From: Jiangella endophytica
GTDB taxonomy: Bacteria; Actinomycetota; Actinomycetes; Jiangellales; Jiangellaceae
Direction of reading: 5' to 3'
NCBI RefSeq assembly: GCF_003427025.1
Contig: NZ_QVAI01000016.1
Coordinates: forward strand, 1 to 64,000
DNA: 64,000 nt
In this document: piece by piece, positions 12,064-19,105 of the stretch
Layout of the letters: each line of letters begins with the position of its first letter
Position numbering within the stretch: position 1 is the stretch's first letter
Made by a program: the position numbers and the translations under genes
The notes under the pieces: model-generated
Seen by the model: only the letters and a program-made list of their open reading frames with translations
What the model was told of the DNA's origin: nothing
Databases searched by the model: none

Positions 12064-13650
12064 TCAGCCTGTGACGGTGAGCAGCCGGCGGGTGTACTCG
12101 TGCTGGGGTGTGGCGAGCACATCGGGGGTGGGGCCGGCCTCGACCACTGCGCCGTCGCGCAGGACGAGGGTGCGCTGGGCGATCGTGCTAACGAGTGGCA
12201 GATCGTGGGTGATGAACAGCATGGTCAGGCCGTCGGACTGCAGGCCGGTCAGCAGCTGGACGATCTCGGCCTGGACGGAGAGGTCCAGCGAGGACGTCAC
12301 CTCGTCGCAGATGAGGATCCGGGGGCGGCAGATCAACGCCCGGGCAAGTGCGACCCGTTGGCGTTCGCCGCCGCTGAGCGCGTGCGGCTGTGACCGTAGG
12401 TGGCGGGTGGACAGTCCCACGCGTTCCAGCGCGGCCGCGGCGGCGTCGGCCGCCTCCGGGCGCGACATGCCCAGCACCAGTTCGGCGGCCAGGGCGACCG
12501 AGCGGCCGGCGGTCCGGCGCGGGTTGAGCGAGCCGAACGGGTTCTGGAAGACGTACTGCAGCGCGCGCAGCTGGGTGAGGTTCCGTCGGGACACTGACCG
12601 CGCCAGCACCTCGCCGTCGAGGCGCACTGTGCCGTCGTAGGAGGTGTGCAGGCCGGCGACGGTGCGGGCGATGGTCGTCTTGCCGCTGCCGGACTCGCCG
12701 ACGAGCGCCACGCACTCGCCGGCATCGACCGTGAAGCCGACGTCGGAGGTCACCGCGACGCCGGCGTGCCGGGCGGTGAGCGCGTCGACCGCGAGCACCG
12801 GGCCAGTGGCCGCGTCTCCCGGCGACGGGCCGGGCCAGTGGCGCGCGAGAGCGGCGCCGACCGGTGCCGGCACGGCCGCGAGCAGTGTCCGCGTGTACTC
12901 GTGCCGCGGCTCGGCCGCCACCCGCGCCGTCGGGCCGTCGTCGACGATAGCGCCGCGGTAGACGACGATCAGCCGGTCCGCCGTCTCCATCAGCAGCCGC
13001 AGGTCGTGGCTGATGAACAGCACGCTCGCACCGGCCGAACGGCTCAGATCGTGCACCAGCCGGACCACGGCGGCCTTGGTGGCGGCGTCCAGACCGGTCG
13101 TCGGCTCGTCGAGGACGACGACGGCGGGGCGCAGCACGAACGCGGTGGCGATGGACACCCGCTGCTGCTGGCCGCCGGAGAGCTGGTTGGGGTAGCGGCG
13201 CAGGAACGCGTCGTCGTGCGGGAGGCCGACGGCGCCGAACGCGGCGGCGATGCGGCGGCGTTGCTCGTCACGATCCCCGATGCCGTGCGCGCGCAGTACT
13301 TCGCGCAGGCCGGCGCCGACGCGCAGCCCCGGGTTGAGCGCGGTGGCCGGGTCCTGGGGGACGTAGCCGACGACATCGCCGCGCAGCCGGCGCAGTTCCT
13401 CGCGGCCCGCGCCGATCAGCTGGTGGTCGCCGACGGCGACGCTTCCGGCGGTGACGGAGAGGCCGGGGCGGGCGAACCCGAGCGCCGACAGGCCGAGGGT
13501 CGTCTTGCCGCTGCCGGTCTCGCCCGCGATGCCGACGAACTCGCCGGGGCCGACGGTGAGGTCGACGCCGTGCAGGACCTCGCGCCGGTCGTCGGTCGCG
13601 TGGATGCGCAGCCCGCTGATCGCGATCCCGGACGCCTCGCTCACCGTCAC
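12064..13650 (-). CDS. Dipeptide/opine-type ABC transporter ATPase, two fused nucleotide-binding domains
   Basis: 528 residues containing two complete ATPase domains (DppD-like then DppF-like). Walker A motifs are 'GETGSGKTT' and 'GESGSGKTT'; signature motifs are 'LSGGQQQR' and 'LSGGERQR'; Walker B regions are 'VVVLDEPTTGLD' and 'ILICDEVTSSLD'. Residue D-E-V instead of D-E-P in the second copy is a mild variant. The GTG start at 13650 overlaps the permease stop as GTGA. It is the last gene of a six-gene minus-strand operon and energises uptake through the two permeases upstream. Confidence 0.92.
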   Translation of the reverse strand: MTVSEASGIAISGLRIHATDDRREVLHGVDLTVGPGEFVGIAGETGSGKTTLGLSALGFARPGLSVTAGSVAVGDHQLIGAGREELRRLRGDVVGYVPQDPATALNPGLRVGAGLREVLRAHGIGDRDEQRRRIAAAFGAVGLPHDDAFLRRYPNQLSGGQQQRVSIATAFVLRPAVVVLDEPTTGLDAATKAAVVRLVHDLSRSAGASVLFISHDLRLLMETADRLIVVYRGAIVDDGPTARVAAEPRHEYTRTLLAAVPAPVGAALARHWPGPSPGDAATGPVLAVDALTARHAGVAVTSDVGFTVDAGECVALVGESGSGKTTIARTVAGLHTSYDGTVRLDGEVLARSVSRRNLTQLRALQYVFQNPFGSLNPRRTAGRSVALAAELVLGMSRPEAADAAAAALERVGLSTRHLRSQPHALSGGERQRVALARALICRPRILICDEVTSSLDLSVQAEIVQLLTGLQSDGLTMLFITHDLPLVSTIAQRTLVLRDGAVVEAGPTPDVLATPQHEYTRRLLTVTG

Positions 13651-14456
13651 CTCACCGCCAGTGCGCGGACGGTGCCGCCGCGCAGGAGATTGACGCCGAT
13701 CAGGAACACGCCGGTGCAGATCACCGGCGCGAGCACGGCCCATGGCTGGATGGTGAGGCCGCCCTGGTTCTCGTGGATCATCCGGCCCCACTGGGTGTCG
13801 GTGGAGCCGAATCCCAGGTAGCTCAGCGAGGCGAGGACGACGACGGAGATGGCGAGCCGGATGCTCAGCTCGAGTAGCACCACGCCCGCGATGTTCGGTA
13901 GCACCTCGCCGGTGAACAGCCGCCGCCGGGACGCGCCCAGGGTGCGGGCGGAGTCGTAGTAGTCCTGGGTGACGACGCGTTGGGTCGCGGCCCGGACCAC
14001 CCGGGCCGACTGCGGGACGTGCACGATGCCGACCACCAGGACGAGCGTCAGCGGCGTCGCGCCGAGCCGGGTCAGCACCAGCAGGGCGATGACGATCTGC
14101 GGCAGGACGATCACCGTGTCATTCAGCGACAGCACCAGGTCGGCGACCCGCCGGGACGCGCTGGCCAGCGCCACGCCGAGGAGCACGCCGGCGCCGACGC
14201 CGAGCGCCGCGGCGAGGATGCCCTGGAGCAGGAAATCACGCCCGCCGGCGAGCAGCCGCGCGAGCACACTGCGGCCCATGACGTCGGTGCCCAGCGGCGC
14301 ATCACCGCCCGGGCCCTGGAACGGTGCGCCGACGAACTCGTCCGGGCTCCCGGCCAGCGCGGGGCCGGCGAACGCGACGAACAGCGTGGCGGCGGTCATC
14401 AGCGTCCCCGCGACGACGCTCGGTCGCCGGACCAGCTGCGTGGCGACGGCGCTCAC
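13647..14456 (-). CDS. Peptide/nickel/opine ABC transporter permease, DppC type
   Basis: 269 residues. The typical DppC N-terminus ('GTDVMGRSVLARLLAGGRD') leads into a five-helix permease domain with an EAA-type loop ('YDSARTLGASRRRLFTGEVL'). The GTG start at 14456 overlaps the stop of the DppB-type permease (GTGA), and its own stop overlaps the ATPase start in the same way, so translation is probably coupled across all three genes. Confidence 0.92.
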   Translation of the reverse strand: MSAVATQLVRRPSVVAGTLMTAATLFVAFAGPALAGSPDEFVGAPFQGPGGDAPLGTDVMGRSVLARLLAGGRDFLLQGILAAALGVGAGVLLGVALASASRRVADLVLSLNDTVIVLPQIVIALLVLTRLGATPLTLVLVVGIVHVPQSARVVRAATQRVVTQDYYDSARTLGASRRRLFTGEVLPNIAGVVLLELSIRLAISVVVLASLSYLGFGSTDTQWGRMIHENQGGLTIQPWAVLAPVICTGVFLIGVNLLRGGTVRALAVR

Positions 14457-15460
14457 GTCAGTGCCGTCCGCAGCCGCGGGGTGAGCAGGATCCCCAGCAC
14501 GTCCGCGACCAGGTAGACGACCAGCGCCACCGTCGCCAGCAGCATGGCGATGGCCTGGACGACGGGGATGTCGCGGTTCGCGACGGCGGCCGTGAGTGCG
14601 GACCCGACGCCCGGGAAGGCGAAGACGTTCTCGACGGCCACGATCCCTCCGGTCAGGTAGATCAGGGTGGTGCCGGCGACCTGGAGGCCCGGGCCGACGG
14701 CGTTGGGCAGCGCATGCCGCCACAAGATCCGCCGCTCCGCGACCCCGCACAGCCGGGCCCAGGTGACGTGCTCGCTGGTGAGCTCGTCGGTCATGGTGGT
14801 GCGGATCGACTCGGTGAAGTAAGGCAGCGAGCCGATGACGAGGGCCAGGACCGGCAGGACCAGCAGGTCCGGCTGCTCCCAGGCCGGTACGGCGGGGTCC
14901 AGGATGGACGTGGGGGCGAACAGCCGCCAGACGTTCGTGGCCAGCAGCACGACCACGAGGATGGCGATGATGAACTCCGGCAACGCCAGGATGAGCAGCA
15001 CCGAGCCCGACACCACGCCGTCGACGACACCACCGGGACTGCGGGCGGCCGCCACCCCGAGGGCGACCGCCAGCGGAATGAGGATCACGGCGGTGAGCAC
15101 CACGATGGTCGCCGAGTTCGCGACCCGGGTGCCGACCAGATCGGCGACCGGCGTGCCGGACGTGAGCGAGGTGCCCAGGTCGAACGTCACCAGGCCGCCG
15201 ATCCAGTCGAGGTACTGGGCCACCACGCCGCGGTCCAGGCCCAGCTGCTCGCGCAGCCGAGCCACCTGGTCGTCGGTGGCGGTCTGGCCGAGCACCTGCC
15301 GGGCGACGTCGCCCGGCAGCGCCTGGGTAAAGAAGAAGACCACCACCGAGACCACGAACAGCATGGCGACGCCGAGCAGCAGCCGCCGCAGCACGTACCG
15401 CGCCACAGGCGAGAGCGCCAGCGTGATCGCCGTGCCCCGCCGCAGGCTCGTCGTCGTCAT
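14453..15460 (-). CDS. Peptide/nickel/opine ABC transporter permease, DppB type
   Basis: 335 residues. The DppB signature N-terminus is present ('YVLRRLLLGVAMLFVVSVVV', then 'FFFTQALPGDVARQVLG'), with a large extracytoplasmic loop and the EAA-type segment 'EHVTWARLCGVAERRILWR'. ATG 15460 is preferred because GGTGGTGAG lies just upstream; an in-frame GTG at 15469 is the alternative. It starts 28 nt after the binding-protein gene ends. Confidence 0.92.
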   Translation of the reverse strand: MTTTSLRRGTAITLALSPVARYVLRRLLLGVAMLFVVSVVVFFFTQALPGDVARQVLGQTATDDQVARLREQLGLDRGVVAQYLDWIGGLVTFDLGTSLTSGTPVADLVGTRVANSATIVVLTAVILIPLAVALGVAAARSPGGVVDGVVSGSVLLILALPEFIIAILVVVLLATNVWRLFAPTSILDPAVPAWEQPDLLVLPVLALVIGSLPYFTESIRTTMTDELTSEHVTWARLCGVAERRILWRHALPNAVGPGLQVAGTTLIYLTGGIVAVENVFAFPGVGSALTAAVANRDIPVVQAIAMLLATVALVVYLVADVLGILLTPRLRTALT

Positions 15461-15487
15461 GCTCACCACCGTTCCGAGTGGGATCCG

Positions 15488-17080
15488 TCAGCCGTCGAAC
15501 CGGAGCGAGGAGAAGTTGTAACCCACGGGCCCGTCGGAGTTCGGGTAGGCCTCGAACCCGGTGACGGTTGTGCTGTGCGCCGTGATCGAGTTGAGGAAGA
15601 CGGCGACGACGTAGGCGCCGCGGTCGTACTCGATCGCCTGCATCTGGTGCACCAGCTCGGTCCGTTCGGCGTCGTCGACGGTGCGGACGGCCTGCTGGTA
15701 CAGGGCGTTGTACTCGTCGTCCTGCCAGTGCGTCGCGTTGTACGGAGCGTTGTCGACGATGGTGAAGGCCGCCTGGTCGAAGATGCTGAGGAAGCCCCAG
15801 AAGGACAGCGAGAGCGGGTAGGTGCCGTAGGCGTCGCCGTAGTACGTGGCCGAGTCGACCTCGTTGAACGTGATGCGGAAGCCGGCTTCGGCCGCCTGCT
15901 GGACGAGCACCTCGTTCTGCCGCGTGGCCGTCGGCTGGATCGGCGCCGCGGTCAGCTCCACGTCCACGCCGTCCGGGTAGCCGGCCTCGGCGAGCAGTGC
16001 GCGTGCCTTGTCGAGGTCCTGTTCGCGCTGCGCCAGGGTGTCGTCGTACGCCGGATCGGTGGGGCCGAAGACGTCGTTGCCGACGCTGGCGTGGCCGGCG
16101 TAGACCTGCTCGACGATCTGGTCGCGGTCGACGGCCAGCCGGAGTGCCTGACGCACCCGGGGGTCGTCGAACGGCTCCTGCTCGACGTTCATCTGCCAGG
16201 TGAGAGTCCCGGTCGTGGCGTACTCGAAGACGTCGAACCCGTCGCCGCCGGACTCGACGATCGGGATGAGCGTCGGGTCGATCGCCGACGCGACGTCGAT
16301 CTGCCCGCCGATCAGCGCGTTCGCCTCGGAGGTGCTGTCCGGGAAGCTGATCACCTCCAGGGTGTCGACGTACGGCTCGTCCTCGACGAAGTAGTCGTCG
16401 TTGGCGGTGAACGTGACGCGGGTGCCCGGCTCCATGGCGCCGAGCTTGAACGGGCCCGACCCGATCGGGGTGGCGGGATCGAAGCTCGCGGGGACGATCG
16501 CGGTGGTGGGCGAGGTCAGAGCGTCGGGGAAGGTCATGGTCGGGTAGCCGAGTTGGAAGTGCACGGTCTTCTCGTCGACGACCGTGACCCGCGCGGGGTC
16601 GATGAACGGCAGCGAGCTGGCCGGCGGCAGCTGCTCGCTGAACCAGCGCTGGACGGTGGCGACGACGTCGTCGGCGGTCACCGGGGTGCCGTCGTGCCAG
16701 ACCGCGTCGCGCAGGACGACCGTCCACGACGATGCGTCTGCGGGGTCGGGCTCCATCGACTCGGCCAGCCGCATCGCGACCTGGCCGCCGGTGCCGTACT
16801 CGACGAGCGTGTCGAACAGCTGGCGGGCGATGACGTAGCCGCCGGTCGTCGTCGCGGCCGCCGGATCGAGCGAGTCCGACGTGGACAGCGACGGGACGCC
16901 GACGCGCAGGGTGCCGCCCTCGGCGGCAGCGGTTCCGGACGACGATTCCTGGCCGGTCGGGCCGGTCGAGTCCGAACCTCCGCCGCAGGCGGCGGCCAGG
17001 ACCAGCGTGAGAGCGGCGGCGAGGGCGGCGCGGGCGGCCGAGGCGCGACGGCGCGCTCGGCGAGGGTGTGGTGCTCGCAT
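15488..17080 (-). CDS. Family 5 solute-binding lipoprotein (peptide/opine/nickel type)
   Basis: 530 residues. An Arg-rich signal peptide ends in a lipobox ('LVLAAAC'), followed by a Gly/Ser linker. The family 5 fold is clear from 'SWTVVLRDAVWHDGTPVTA', 'YPTMTFPDALTSPTTAIVP' and 'VRQALRLAVDRDQIVEQVY'. The family binds peptides, opines, nickel complexes or oligosaccharides. Its neighbours, two genes resembling opine-synthase halves, point to an amino-acid-derived ligand, but this is inference. A 13-bp hairpin at 17100-17126 separates it from the two upstream small genes, so its expression level may differ from theirs. Confidence 0.92.
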   Translation of the reverse strand: MRAPHPRRARRRASAARAALAAALTLVLAAACGGGSDSTGPTGQESSSGTAAAEGGTLRVGVPSLSTSDSLDPAAATTTGGYVIARQLFDTLVEYGTGGQVAMRLAESMEPDPADASSWTVVLRDAVWHDGTPVTADDVVATVQRWFSEQLPPASSLPFIDPARVTVVDEKTVHFQLGYPTMTFPDALTSPTTAIVPASFDPATPIGSGPFKLGAMEPGTRVTFTANDDYFVEDEPYVDTLEVISFPDSTSEANALIGGQIDVASAIDPTLIPIVESGGDGFDVFEYATTGTLTWQMNVEQEPFDDPRVRQALRLAVDRDQIVEQVYAGHASVGNDVFGPTDPAYDDTLAQREQDLDKARALLAEAGYPDGVDVELTAAPIQPTATRQNEVLVQQAAEAGFRITFNEVDSATYYGDAYGTYPLSLSFWGFLSIFDQAAFTIVDNAPYNATHWQDDEYNALYQQAVRTVDDAERTELVHQMQAIEYDRGAYVVAVFLNSITAHSTTVTGFEAYPNSDGPVGYNFSSLRFDG

Positions 17081-17099
17081 GGGCAGCTCCTTGACGAGA

Positions 17100-17126
17100 C
17101 CGTGGGCCTGCCTGGCAGGCCCACGG
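17100..17126 (-). terminator. Intra-operon hairpin between the small genes and the binding-protein gene
   Basis: A perfect 13-bp inverted repeat (CCGTGGGCCTGCC / GGCAGGCCCACGG) with a single-base centre lies 23 nt after the stop of the cyclophilin-like gene and 20 nt before the binding-protein start, reading on the minus strand. It could be a partial terminator, an mRNA-stabilising stem, or, as DNA, a protein-binding palindrome. Confidence 0.5.
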
Positions 17127-17149
17127 TGGAGTCCGCGGTGCGTGGAGAC

Positions 17150-17578
17150 TCAGTTCTCCACGAGTGACAGCCAGACCCGGGCGCCGGGCTCAAGCCAGGT
17201 CTTGATTCCGATGAGTTCGAGCTGGTCGGCACCCTCGACGACCCGGCCGATCCCGGAGACGGGCAGCGGCTCCGGCGGGATGTCGGTGCCGTACATGATG
17301 GAGATCTGCTGGCGCGGGCCGTAGTACGAGACCATGCCGCGCACGTCGGTCTCGCCGGCGTTCGCCTGCTCGACGAGGTCGTCGGGGTAGAACATGTTCT
17401 CCCAGTCGGCCAGGATCTTCGTCTGCATCAGAAGCAGGTCACCGGTGAGCTTGCCGTGCTGCAGGTAGGTCGCGAACGGCAGCGCCTCGCGGATCGCGGC
17501 GGCCAGCTGCGGGACCTTGTCGCCCCAGATCTCGATGACGGCCACGTCCTCGCCGGCGAGATTGAAATTGATCTTCAT
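17150..17578 (-). CDS. Small cyclophilin-like-fold protein (DUF3830-type; resembles the cucumopine synthase N-terminal domain)
   Basis: 142 residues, no signal peptide, no membrane segment. The sequence pattern ('VAVIEIWGDKVPQLAAAIRE', 'ATYLQHGKLTGDLLLMQTK', 'GMVSYYGPRQQISIMYG') matches, from memory, small cyclophilin-like proteins grouped as DUF3830, the fold of the N-terminal half of agrobacterial cucumopine synthase. That enzyme condenses histidine with 2-oxoglutarate. The gene sits 33 nt after a helical-bundle protein that resembles the other half. A single-chain synthase would join the two. It may instead act on an imported compound. Function is not proven. Confidence 0.55.
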   Translation of the reverse strand: MKINFNLAGEDVAVIEIWGDKVPQLAAAIREALPFATYLQHGKLTGDLLLMQTKILADWENMFYPDDLVEQANAGETDVRGMVSYYGPRQQISIMYGTDIPPEPLPVSGIGRVVEGADQLELIGIKTWLEPGARVWLSLVEN

Positions 17579-17611
17579 GGAGTGCTGCTCCAGTGCTCGG
17601 GGTGGGCCGGG

Positions 17612-18151
17612 TCAGGCGGTCGCGGTGTCGGCGACCCGCTGGAGCGGGTTGACCCGCTTGAAGCCGTTGATGAGGCCCCAGGGGAAGGCGATGTCGACCC
17701 AGCCGTGGATGCGGTTGAAGTACGTCATGGCCGCGCGCGTCAGCTCGGCGAACTCGTCCAGCGTGGTCGCGGCGAGGATGCCGCCCACGTAGAGCTTCAT
17801 GACCGAGCCGGCCTCGGGCAGCCCGACGTAGTCGAACATGTTGCCCTTGTACTGGCAGATCTCGTCCATGTAGGAGACGAGCGTGGCCAGGTCGGTCTCC
17901 GGCTTGGTGGTGGCGGTCCGCCACGCGAACCAGAGCACCTCGTCGGTGACCGTGCGCAGTTCGTTCTCGGCGAAGATCAACGTCGAGAGGTAGTTGTTCT
18001 TGGCGCCCGTGCCGCGCGGCACCTCGCCGCGGCTCAGCGCGAGCACTTCCGCCGGTGGCGTCTCCCACACCCGGTCCCGTTCGGCGTCGATCTGGGCGAC
18101 CGTCGCCTCGACCGATGCCACGGAGGTGCGGACCTCTGCCTGACTGACCAC
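17612..18151 (-). CDS. Helical protein resembling the cucumopine-synthase C-terminal helical bundle
   Basis: 179 residues, soluble, mainly helical, starting GTG/ATG-type at 18151 with GGAGAGGGCGACGTGG just upstream. The segments 'KNNYLSTLIFAENELRTVTD' and 'EVLWFAWRTATTKPETDL' recall the helical-bundle domain that follows the cyclophilin-like domain in cucumopine/mikimopine synthases; this is recognition from memory and is uncertain. It is the first gene of the six-gene operon, divergent from the IclR regulator. Paired with the cyclophilin-like protein it could form a two-subunit opine-type enzyme. Confidence 0.5.
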   Translation of the reverse strand: MVSQAEVRTSVASVEATVAQIDAERDRVWETPPAEVLALSRGEVPRGTGAKNNYLSTLIFAENELRTVTDEVLWFAWRTATTKPETDLATLVSYMDEICQYKGNMFDYVGLPEAGSVMKLYVGGILAATTLDEFAELTRAAMTYFNRIHGWVDIAFPWGLINGFKRVNPLQRVADTATA

Positions 18152-18171
18152 GTCGCCCTCTCCTCTGCTCT

Positions 18172-18409
18172 GGTGACTGGTGCTGCGGAACGCTACGGAG
18201 CGCCGACAAGGATTGTCAATGGATGCAAGTCGATGTCACTCTATGAAAGAGTGGCGTCGTGTGGCGCAGCGAGGCGCCGCCAGAACCCGGGGACACATGG
18301 TGGCAATCATCCGGACATCTGAAGCTCGTCGGCCGGCCTGCGGCGACACATTCGACTTTCATTCTGTGGTGGTGTGTAACATCTCGTGATCAGAACACCA
18401 GGAGGGTCT
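18172..18409. promoter_or_regulatory. Divergent control region between the opine-type operon and the IclR gene
   Basis: Reading minus, TTGACA (18219-18214) is followed 18 nt later by TAGCGT, a plausible promoter for the transport operon. Just upstream of that -35 is an inverted repeat, CACTCT-ATGAA-AGAGTG (18237-18253), a candidate IclR-type binding site. Nothing else in the interval is recognisable except the ribosome site of the IclR gene at 18400-18406. Confidence 0.45.
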
Positions 18410-19105
18410 GTGGCGAAGGCAACACCGGACGACAACGCTGGCAGCTCGACCAAGACCGTCGATCGCGCCCTCACGCTCCTCGTGACCCTGCTCGAGGGCC
18501 GGTCCGGCACGACGCTCACCGAACTGGCCCGCGCGACCAACCTCTCGCCCAGCACCGCCTCGCGGCTGCTCGCCACCATGGCCGGCCACCAGCTCGTGGC
18601 CCGCGGCGTCGACGGACGGTTCCGGGCCGGCTCCCGGATGAAGCAACTGGCGGCGGCCACGCTGCGCGAGGAACCGCTCTACGAGCTGGCCGGTCCGCAC
18701 CTGCACGAACTGGCCACCGAGACGGGCGAGACGTCCAGTCTCGCGGTCGCCGCCGAGGAGGACCGCGTGCTCTACCTGCGTCAGGTCGCCAGCTCGCACC
18801 GGGTGCACGCCGCCGACTGGACCGGCCGGACCATACCGCGCTCCGGCACCGCTCTCGGCGCCGCGTTGGACGGCACGTCCAGCCCCCGCGGCTACGTGAC
18901 GTCGCGCCGGCCCGACAGCGACATCGTCGCCGTGGCGGCCCCGGTCATCGGGCGCGACGGGCACATCGTCGCCGGGCTGAGCATCAACGCCCCCGCCTAC
19001 CGGACCTCCAACGCCGACCTCGACCGCTACGGCAAGTCGATCGCCCGCCACGCCGTCACCCTGTCCCTCGCGCTCGGTGCCCCCGCCGACATCGTCGGCC
19101 GCTGA
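18410..19105 (+). CDS. IclR-family transcriptional regulator
   Basis: 231 residues. The winged HTH occupies the first ~80 residues ('TLTELARATNLSPSTASRLL'), followed by an effector-binding IclR domain ('ELATETGETSSLAVAAEEDR', 'AAPVIGRDGHIVAGLSI'). The GTG start at 18410 is chosen because AGGAGGG lies at 18400-18406; upstream in-frame codons lack a ribosome site. It is divergent from the opine-type transport operon, the usual position for a local IclR repressor or activator. The conserved region is slightly short of the family norm (~250) in the sensor domain. Confidence 0.9.
   Translation: MAKATPDDNAGSSTKTVDRALTLLVTLLEGRSGTTLTELARATNLSPSTASRLLATMAGHQLVARGVDGRFRAGSRMKQLAAATLREEPLYELAGPHLHELATETGETSSLAVAAEEDRVLYLRQVASSHRVHAADWTGRTIPRSGTALGAALDGTSSPRGYVTSRRPDSDIVAVAAPVIGRDGHIVAGLSINAPAYRTSNADLDRYGKSIARHAVTLSLALGAPADIVGR

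Follow-up and report, generated by a model that had tools for sequence, protein, structure and literature searches.

What is the function of two small neighbouring genes in the actinobacterium Jiangella endophytica that resemble the two halves of cucumopine synthase and that head an operon with an ABC importer? The genes lie in the window, by which we mean the whole stretch analysed, the first 64,000 nucleotides of contig NZ_QVAI01000016.1. A preliminary description of this DNA proposed a bipartite enzyme that makes, modifies or degrades an imidazole-containing opine or a related adduct.

The operon and its two leading genes

Six closely spaced genes run on the minus strand from position 18151 down to 12064. 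The first (17612..18151) has a GTG start and encodes a helical-bundle protein of 179 amino acids that belongs to the Cucumopine_C family (PF18631). The second (17150..17578) follows after a gap of 33 bp and encodes a cyclophilin-like protein of 142 amino acids, so that the two domains occupy separate open reading frames rather than one chain. The importer consists of a family-5 solute-binding protein (SBP_bac_5, 15488..17080), whose N-terminus looks lipoprotein-like by eye, two permeases (14453..15469 and 13647..14456) and a fused double ATPase (12064..13650), the last three being supported by profile matches and by their retention in relatives. An IclR-type regulator gene (18386..19105) on the plus strand diverges from the operon across an intergenic region of 234 bp (18152..18385). 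The layout is therefore as first described: the pair heads an operon with a complete family-5 importer and faces an IclR regulator.

For the bundle half, homology to the Cucumopine_C half of cucumopine synthase, McbB and KslB is firm. The protein matches PF18631 with an E-value of 9.3e-36 (123.6 bits, the cut-off being 27) and, in a single-sequence search, PDB entry 3x27 (McbB, labelled cucumopine synthase) with an E-value of 4e-9. Its predicted model has a pLDDT of 87, and the top Foldseek matches are McbB and KslB, in agreement with the fold that had been proposed for it.

For the cyclophilin-like half, we draw the corresponding conclusion with moderate confidence. Three families match it below their cut-offs (PF04126, DUF3830 and PF18050, the best being PF04126 with E 0.0013). 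Membership in DUF3830 (PF12903) was rejected at 17.1 bits against a cut-off of 26, a cut-off that P0005 and P0007, proteins of the riorf22 type introduced below, likewise do not reach. The single protein finds KslB with an E-value of 0.065. In hhalign, the window-type cyclophilin half aligns with the riorf22-type alignment at 58.9% and E 9.4e-5, and the complete list of PDB matches of the window-type profile (A9) up to an E-value of 10 reads 2nnz (0.023), KslB (0.11 and 0.13) and 4gnx (0.56). Two further alignments (A7 and A8) include McbB from locus L026, so that their E-values for 3x27 follow by construction; their matches to KslB do not, yet are aided by McbB. The expected cyclophilin fold was upheld in part: KslB heads the Foldseek results (E about 1e-3), followed by TM1367 and 3kop, but the predicted model is poor (pLDDT 56) and no match reaches an E-value of 0.001 or below.

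Relatives of the pair in plasmids and genomes

A scan of species genomes returned 13 loci, four of which are close relatives of the window operon, in metagenome-assembled genomes titled Actinomycetales (L014), Bifidobacteriaceae (L015), Coriobacteriaceae (L016) and Eggerthellaceae (L017). The six operon genes occur in each of them in the same order. The best-kept parts are the two enzyme halves, with tblastn identities of 67-72% (bundle) and 75-80% (cyclophilin), against 46-62% for the importer (binding protein 52-62%, permeases 47-56%, ATPase 46-52%). The IclR gene is 47% identical, and likewise divergent, in L014. Identity within the two enzyme genes is 80-93% at second codon positions and 46-63% at third ones, a pattern that, together with the conserved operon, rules out a chance resemblance. 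In 22 genomes of the organism's own family, the matches listed for the binding protein, itself excepted, reach at most 37% identity. Since the identity is 52-62% in the carriers of the operon, importer and enzyme seemingly travelled together, and the same comparison rules out an ordinary dipeptide importer that happens to lie beside two unrelated genes.

The intergenic regions contain two elements. The divergent region harbours an inverted repeat, CACTCT-N5-AGAGTG (18237-18253), which from its sequence is a possible candidate operator, and a perfect 14-bp hairpin separates the enzyme pair from the importer genes (17099..17127, minus strand, z -3.68), a possible candidate for an mRNA stability or attenuation element. 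With the hairpin between them, the enzyme pair and the importer may be expressed differently. The lists of repeats upstream of the operon in L014-L017 do not include the CACTCT repeat, and the gap that corresponds to the hairpin holds no repeat of comparable length in these four relatives; with nothing comparable listed at the corresponding places, we do not claim that operator or hairpin is conserved. The upstream region of the operon in L017 (5668-5977) has inverted repeats based on CTCACGGGA / TCCCGTGAG.

In its own genome, the bundle protein is the one Cucumopine_C match, and searches for bundle matches in the family (1 of 22 genomes) and in two phylum samples (1 of 296, P0002, and 1 of 396) each recovered this genome alone; an order-level search covered the same 22 genomes as the family search. 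A window-type profile found bundle matches in 8 of 393 genomes of a class sample; L036/L044, L037 (McbB itself), L038, L041 and L042 were read, and L039, L040 and L043 were not. The four fused relatives read from this sample are McbB-like. One of the eight genomes, G574, has another split pair, 46% identical in the bundle half and 43% in the cyclophilin half, accompanied by an amino-acid-type importer in place of the family-5 importer. The 35 genomes of its family yielded no further split pair, the two matches being G574 itself and a fused gene in G605. Four scans of viral contigs turned up no relative, and tblastn of plasmid records with the cyclophilin half gave no match. The notion that the pair is unique to this genome was rejected, as relatives were found in the plasmid, species-genome and class-sample searches.

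The plasmid searches by tblastn recovered pairs of a second type, named here after riorf22 and riorf23, on pRi1724, on Sodalis plasmid pHS1 and on Sinorhizobium medicae plasmids; in all, the relatives of the pRi1724 pair come from Sodalis, Sinorhizobium, Chelatococcus, Phyllobacterium and others. On the mikimopine plasmid pRi1724, riorf22 and riorf23 are the same two halves, near an ABC importer and hydantoinase genes. The view that such a bipartite enzyme had not been described does not hold, since a 2014 paper already names these two genes as a mis homologue (PMC4242671), and the split pair as such is not new. The portions of the literature that we searched, which do not extend to the 2022 work on the cucumopine-catabolic plasmid pAtAg67, give no stated function for riorf22 and riorf23 and mention no such operon outside Proteobacteria.

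Like the window, the riorf-type loci have adjacent cyclophilin-like and Cucumopine_C genes, and 10 of the 13 loci have importer permeases in their flanks. Unlike in the window, the cyclophilin gene comes first, the proteins are 21-28% identical to those of the window, the importers are of other types, the regulators are often of the RpiR type, and hydantoinase A/B genes are present in some. Mis shares 54% identity with the riorf22/23 pair in the cyclophilin part and 36% in the bundle part. Plasmid pMl1 of Sinorhizobium medicae strain ml49 has two copies of the split pair (L007 8534-9501 and L013 8579-9546), one of them sharing 97% identity with pRi1724 in the bundle half. A third pair of split genes, strongly diverged, resides on the Paraburkholderia symbiotic plasmid pSYMBR3459 (L012 8501-19410), with AroM, GntR, an amino-acid importer, an aminotransferase, CtlX and ornithine cyclodeaminase as neighbours; it perhaps serves another opine-like compound.

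A stand-alone bundle gene comes with its partner, as had been anticipated: in all 21 such loci that were read, a cyclophilin-like gene adjoins it. One of these pairs looks broken, that of Paracoccus sp. MKU1 (L025 6640-7374), where the cyclophilin frame enters the bundle gene out of frame.

Single-chain relatives share both domains with the window pair, as well as the glutamate and histidine columns considered below. Cus and Mis differ by being single chains encoded beside rol-type genes, with the window halves 25% (cyclophilin) and 23% (bundle) identical to Mis. KslB and McbB are also single chains, but act on tryptophan, and the window halves are 19-23% identical to them; KslB condenses L-tryptophan with 2-oxoglutarate (PMC12513458). 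The bundle domain comes first in the window clade, in KslB and in the cus-like gene, and the cyclophilin domain in the riorf clade, in McbB and in Mis. Of the two fused genes in the histidine utilization (hut) cluster of plasmid pRi2659, one shows each order. In trees from which L009, L011, L023 and L025 were left out, the two fall together with KslB at a support of 100, so the domains have swapped places within the family.

Histidine utilization genes and the direction of the reaction

If the pair does work on an imported opine, does it make or break it? To address this question, we compared the surroundings of 22 loci: 6 of the window type, 13 of the riorf type (one locus being counted from two strains, L007 and L011, and several flanks being short), 1 from Paraburkholderia and 2 fused McbB-type loci, with L009 left out. 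An importer accompanies the pair in all 6 window-type loci, as expected for an opine catabolic operon. A hutH gene is found within a few kilobases in 2 of the 6 window-type and 4 of the 13 riorf-type loci (L006, L019, L022 and L024, three of which are one lineage), but neither in the Paraburkholderia locus nor in the two fused ones. In L014, a hutH-hutU-hutF-hutI cluster, with all genes above the NCBIfam cut-offs, starts about 2 kb from the pair, past two IclR genes. In G574 (L044), hutH and hutU diverge from the importer genes that precede the pair, and there is a hutF-like stretch as well. No hut genes were found near the other 4 of the 6 window-type loci, the window included, nor near riorf22/23 on pRi1724, with some of the flanks short; no hydantoinase match occurs within 12 kb of the window pair. 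The J. endophytica genome encodes hutH and hutU on another contig (C30), and the L015 genome hutI and hutH, also on another contig. In the metagenome-assembled L016 and L017 genomes no PF00221 gene was found, which is the main gap in the reading that histidine is the product.

Plasmid pRi2659 offers a parallel. It is called a cucumopine Ri plasmid (PMC8554961), and cucumopine and mikimopine are histidine-derived diastereomers (PMC9103826). One block of it contains hydantoinase A/B, hutC, hutH, two fused cus-like genes, a four-gene ABC importer, hutF, hutI, hutG and hutU. As in the window, the same two domains are encoded next to an importer; histidine catabolism genes surround them on pRi2659. 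The differences are that the pRi2659 proteins are single chains, on the plasmid of a plant-transforming bacterium, and that the importers are, by annotation, of other types. Such a block, in which a gene resembling the synthase lies with an importer and the histidine pathway, is the setting to be expected if the enzyme splits the opine to release histidine. Hydantoinases of the kind found on pRi2659 have been proposed to open opine lactams (PMC6733357). One gene of the hut cluster is 92% identical (284/308) to a cus-like gene about 16 kb away, beside rolB-family genes, which from its position is taken to be the T-DNA synthase. This near-copy could also be a recent or idle duplicate without a catabolic role. 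Three cus-like genes were read on the plasmid, one next to rolB-family genes and the other two within the hut cluster (L048 7162-9447, L051 5963-8248, L049 11488-12450); one of the hut-cluster copies is almost letter for letter the same as the rolB-side gene in its core and differs at the ends, as though a recent duplication, or gene conversion, had produced it.

The hut genes near the relatives' pairs and the pRi2659 block narrow the earlier choice between making, modifying and degrading towards degradation, with histidine as the product. They bear on two alternatives. The operon could serve biosynthesis, with an opine-like chelator or signal made from histidine and a keto acid, released, and retaken by the family-5 importer after metal binding, in the manner of opine metallophores. 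The characterised homologues are indeed synthases, and the best NCBIfam match of the binding protein is the NikA model, with a weaker one to the staphylopine-binding CntA, all far below the cut-offs. However, the six conserved genes include neither an exporter nor a tailoring enzyme (beyond the operon this was judged by eye), the type of importer differs in G574, and the linkage to hut genes points to breakdown. Taken together, this makes a biosynthetic role unlikely in our view. Alternatively, the pathway may be catabolic, but directed at an adduct of another arylethylamine, for example a tetrahydro-beta-carboline acid derived from tryptophan. This would fit with the use of tryptophan by the structurally solved homologues McbB and KslB, with the presence of hut genes near only part of the loci, and with the L016 and L017 genomes in which no PF00221 gene was found. 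That hut genes neighbour two separate loci of actinobacteria, and also surround the homologues on pRi2659, speaks for histidine instead, and we give a tryptophan adduct little chance. Importer and hut queries found no match at the McbB locus (L026) or at the McbB-like Nonomuraea locus (L010), although an ABC ATPase-like stretch is present in the latter.

A proposed reverse Pictet-Spengler reaction

Glu103 of the window protein aligns with Glu97 of McbB, and His41 with McbB His44 (the McbB numbers being hand-counted on the L026 reading frame); the placement of Glu103 depends on an alignment in which the window clade has 2 inserted residues. Both columns are invariant across the 24 members of the alignment, which contains some near-identical sequences and includes McbB, KslB, Mis and the pRi2659 genes. 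Glu97 of McbB is the catalytic glutamate, acting together with R72 and H87. The other two positions vary: R72 corresponds to R81 in the window, but to C in L016 and S in L017, and is thus not kept in the clade, and the H87 column has Q in the window clade and, by eye, K or an adjacent N in KslB-type rows. The window clade also has a 12-residue insertion relative to the riorf22 type. The lost arginine and the longer loop may indicate a carbonyl partner other than 2-oxoglutarate. One candidate substrate is spinacine, the adduct of histidine and formaldehyde (PMC9814826).

The altered R72 and H87 positions and the insertion, together with the 19-23% identity to McbB and KslB, would also fit if the pair had kept only the fold and had drifted to some other reaction on an imported compound, as a hydrolase, decarboxylase, epimerase or lactam-opening enzyme. 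The invariance of the glutamate and histidine columns is at odds with such a drift, as are the importers and, in part, hut genes in the neighbourhood, which parallel those of the pRi2659 homologues, and we consider it distinctly improbable.

Together, the data lead us to favour, by a little over an even chance, a model in which the operon serves to scavenge an adduct of histidine and a carbonyl compound, of the cucumopine/mikimopine type, which is split by a bipartite reverse Pictet-Spenglerase; we infer the substrate, the direction and the formation of a complex. The adduct would be taken up via the binding protein and the ABC importer. The two small proteins would assemble into one heteromeric enzyme, equivalent to single-chain cucumopine synthase, McbB or KslB. 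Acting as acid-base, the conserved Glu103 would run the Pictet-Spengler reaction backwards: by microscopic reversibility, the same glutamate could protonate the ring carbon for ring opening to the iminium, the hydrolysis of which would release L-histidine and a keto acid or aldehyde. The carbonyl partner might be 2-oxoglutarate, as in cucumopine, or else pyruvate, glyoxylate or formaldehyde. Histidine would then enter the Hut pathway, presumably through the hutH and hutU products encoded on the other contig, and the IclR protein would govern the operon in response to substrate or product.

The Pictet-Spenglerase family is known for the synthesis of alkaloids and opines, and its operation in reverse, if true, would be a new use of the family. 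The portions of the literature that we searched contain no statement of the way in which the cucumopine or mikimopine ring is opened in bacteria. Our study supplies concrete genes: a two-gene enzyme together with its importer and, within the pRi2659 hut cluster, a close copy of the synthase-like gene. The new evidence concerns direction, and consists of the hut genes near the pairs and of this copy. To our knowledge, the actinobacteria with the window-type operon play no part in crown gall or hairy root disease. We suggest, tentatively and at somewhat less than an even chance, that there is a catabolic branch of the Pictet-Spenglerase family, made up of importer-coupled, split "histidine-opine lyases" in actinobacteria outside the crown gall and hairy root setting. 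On this view, Cus and Mis would be enzymes of the same kind, fused and residing in plant-transferred DNA, so that the maker and the breaker of the opine would be one enzyme working in two directions, and histidine adducts would serve as a nutrient beyond Agrobacterium galls as well. If this is true, such adducts would have to be abundant enough in settings other than plant galls for dedicated uptake systems to be maintained.
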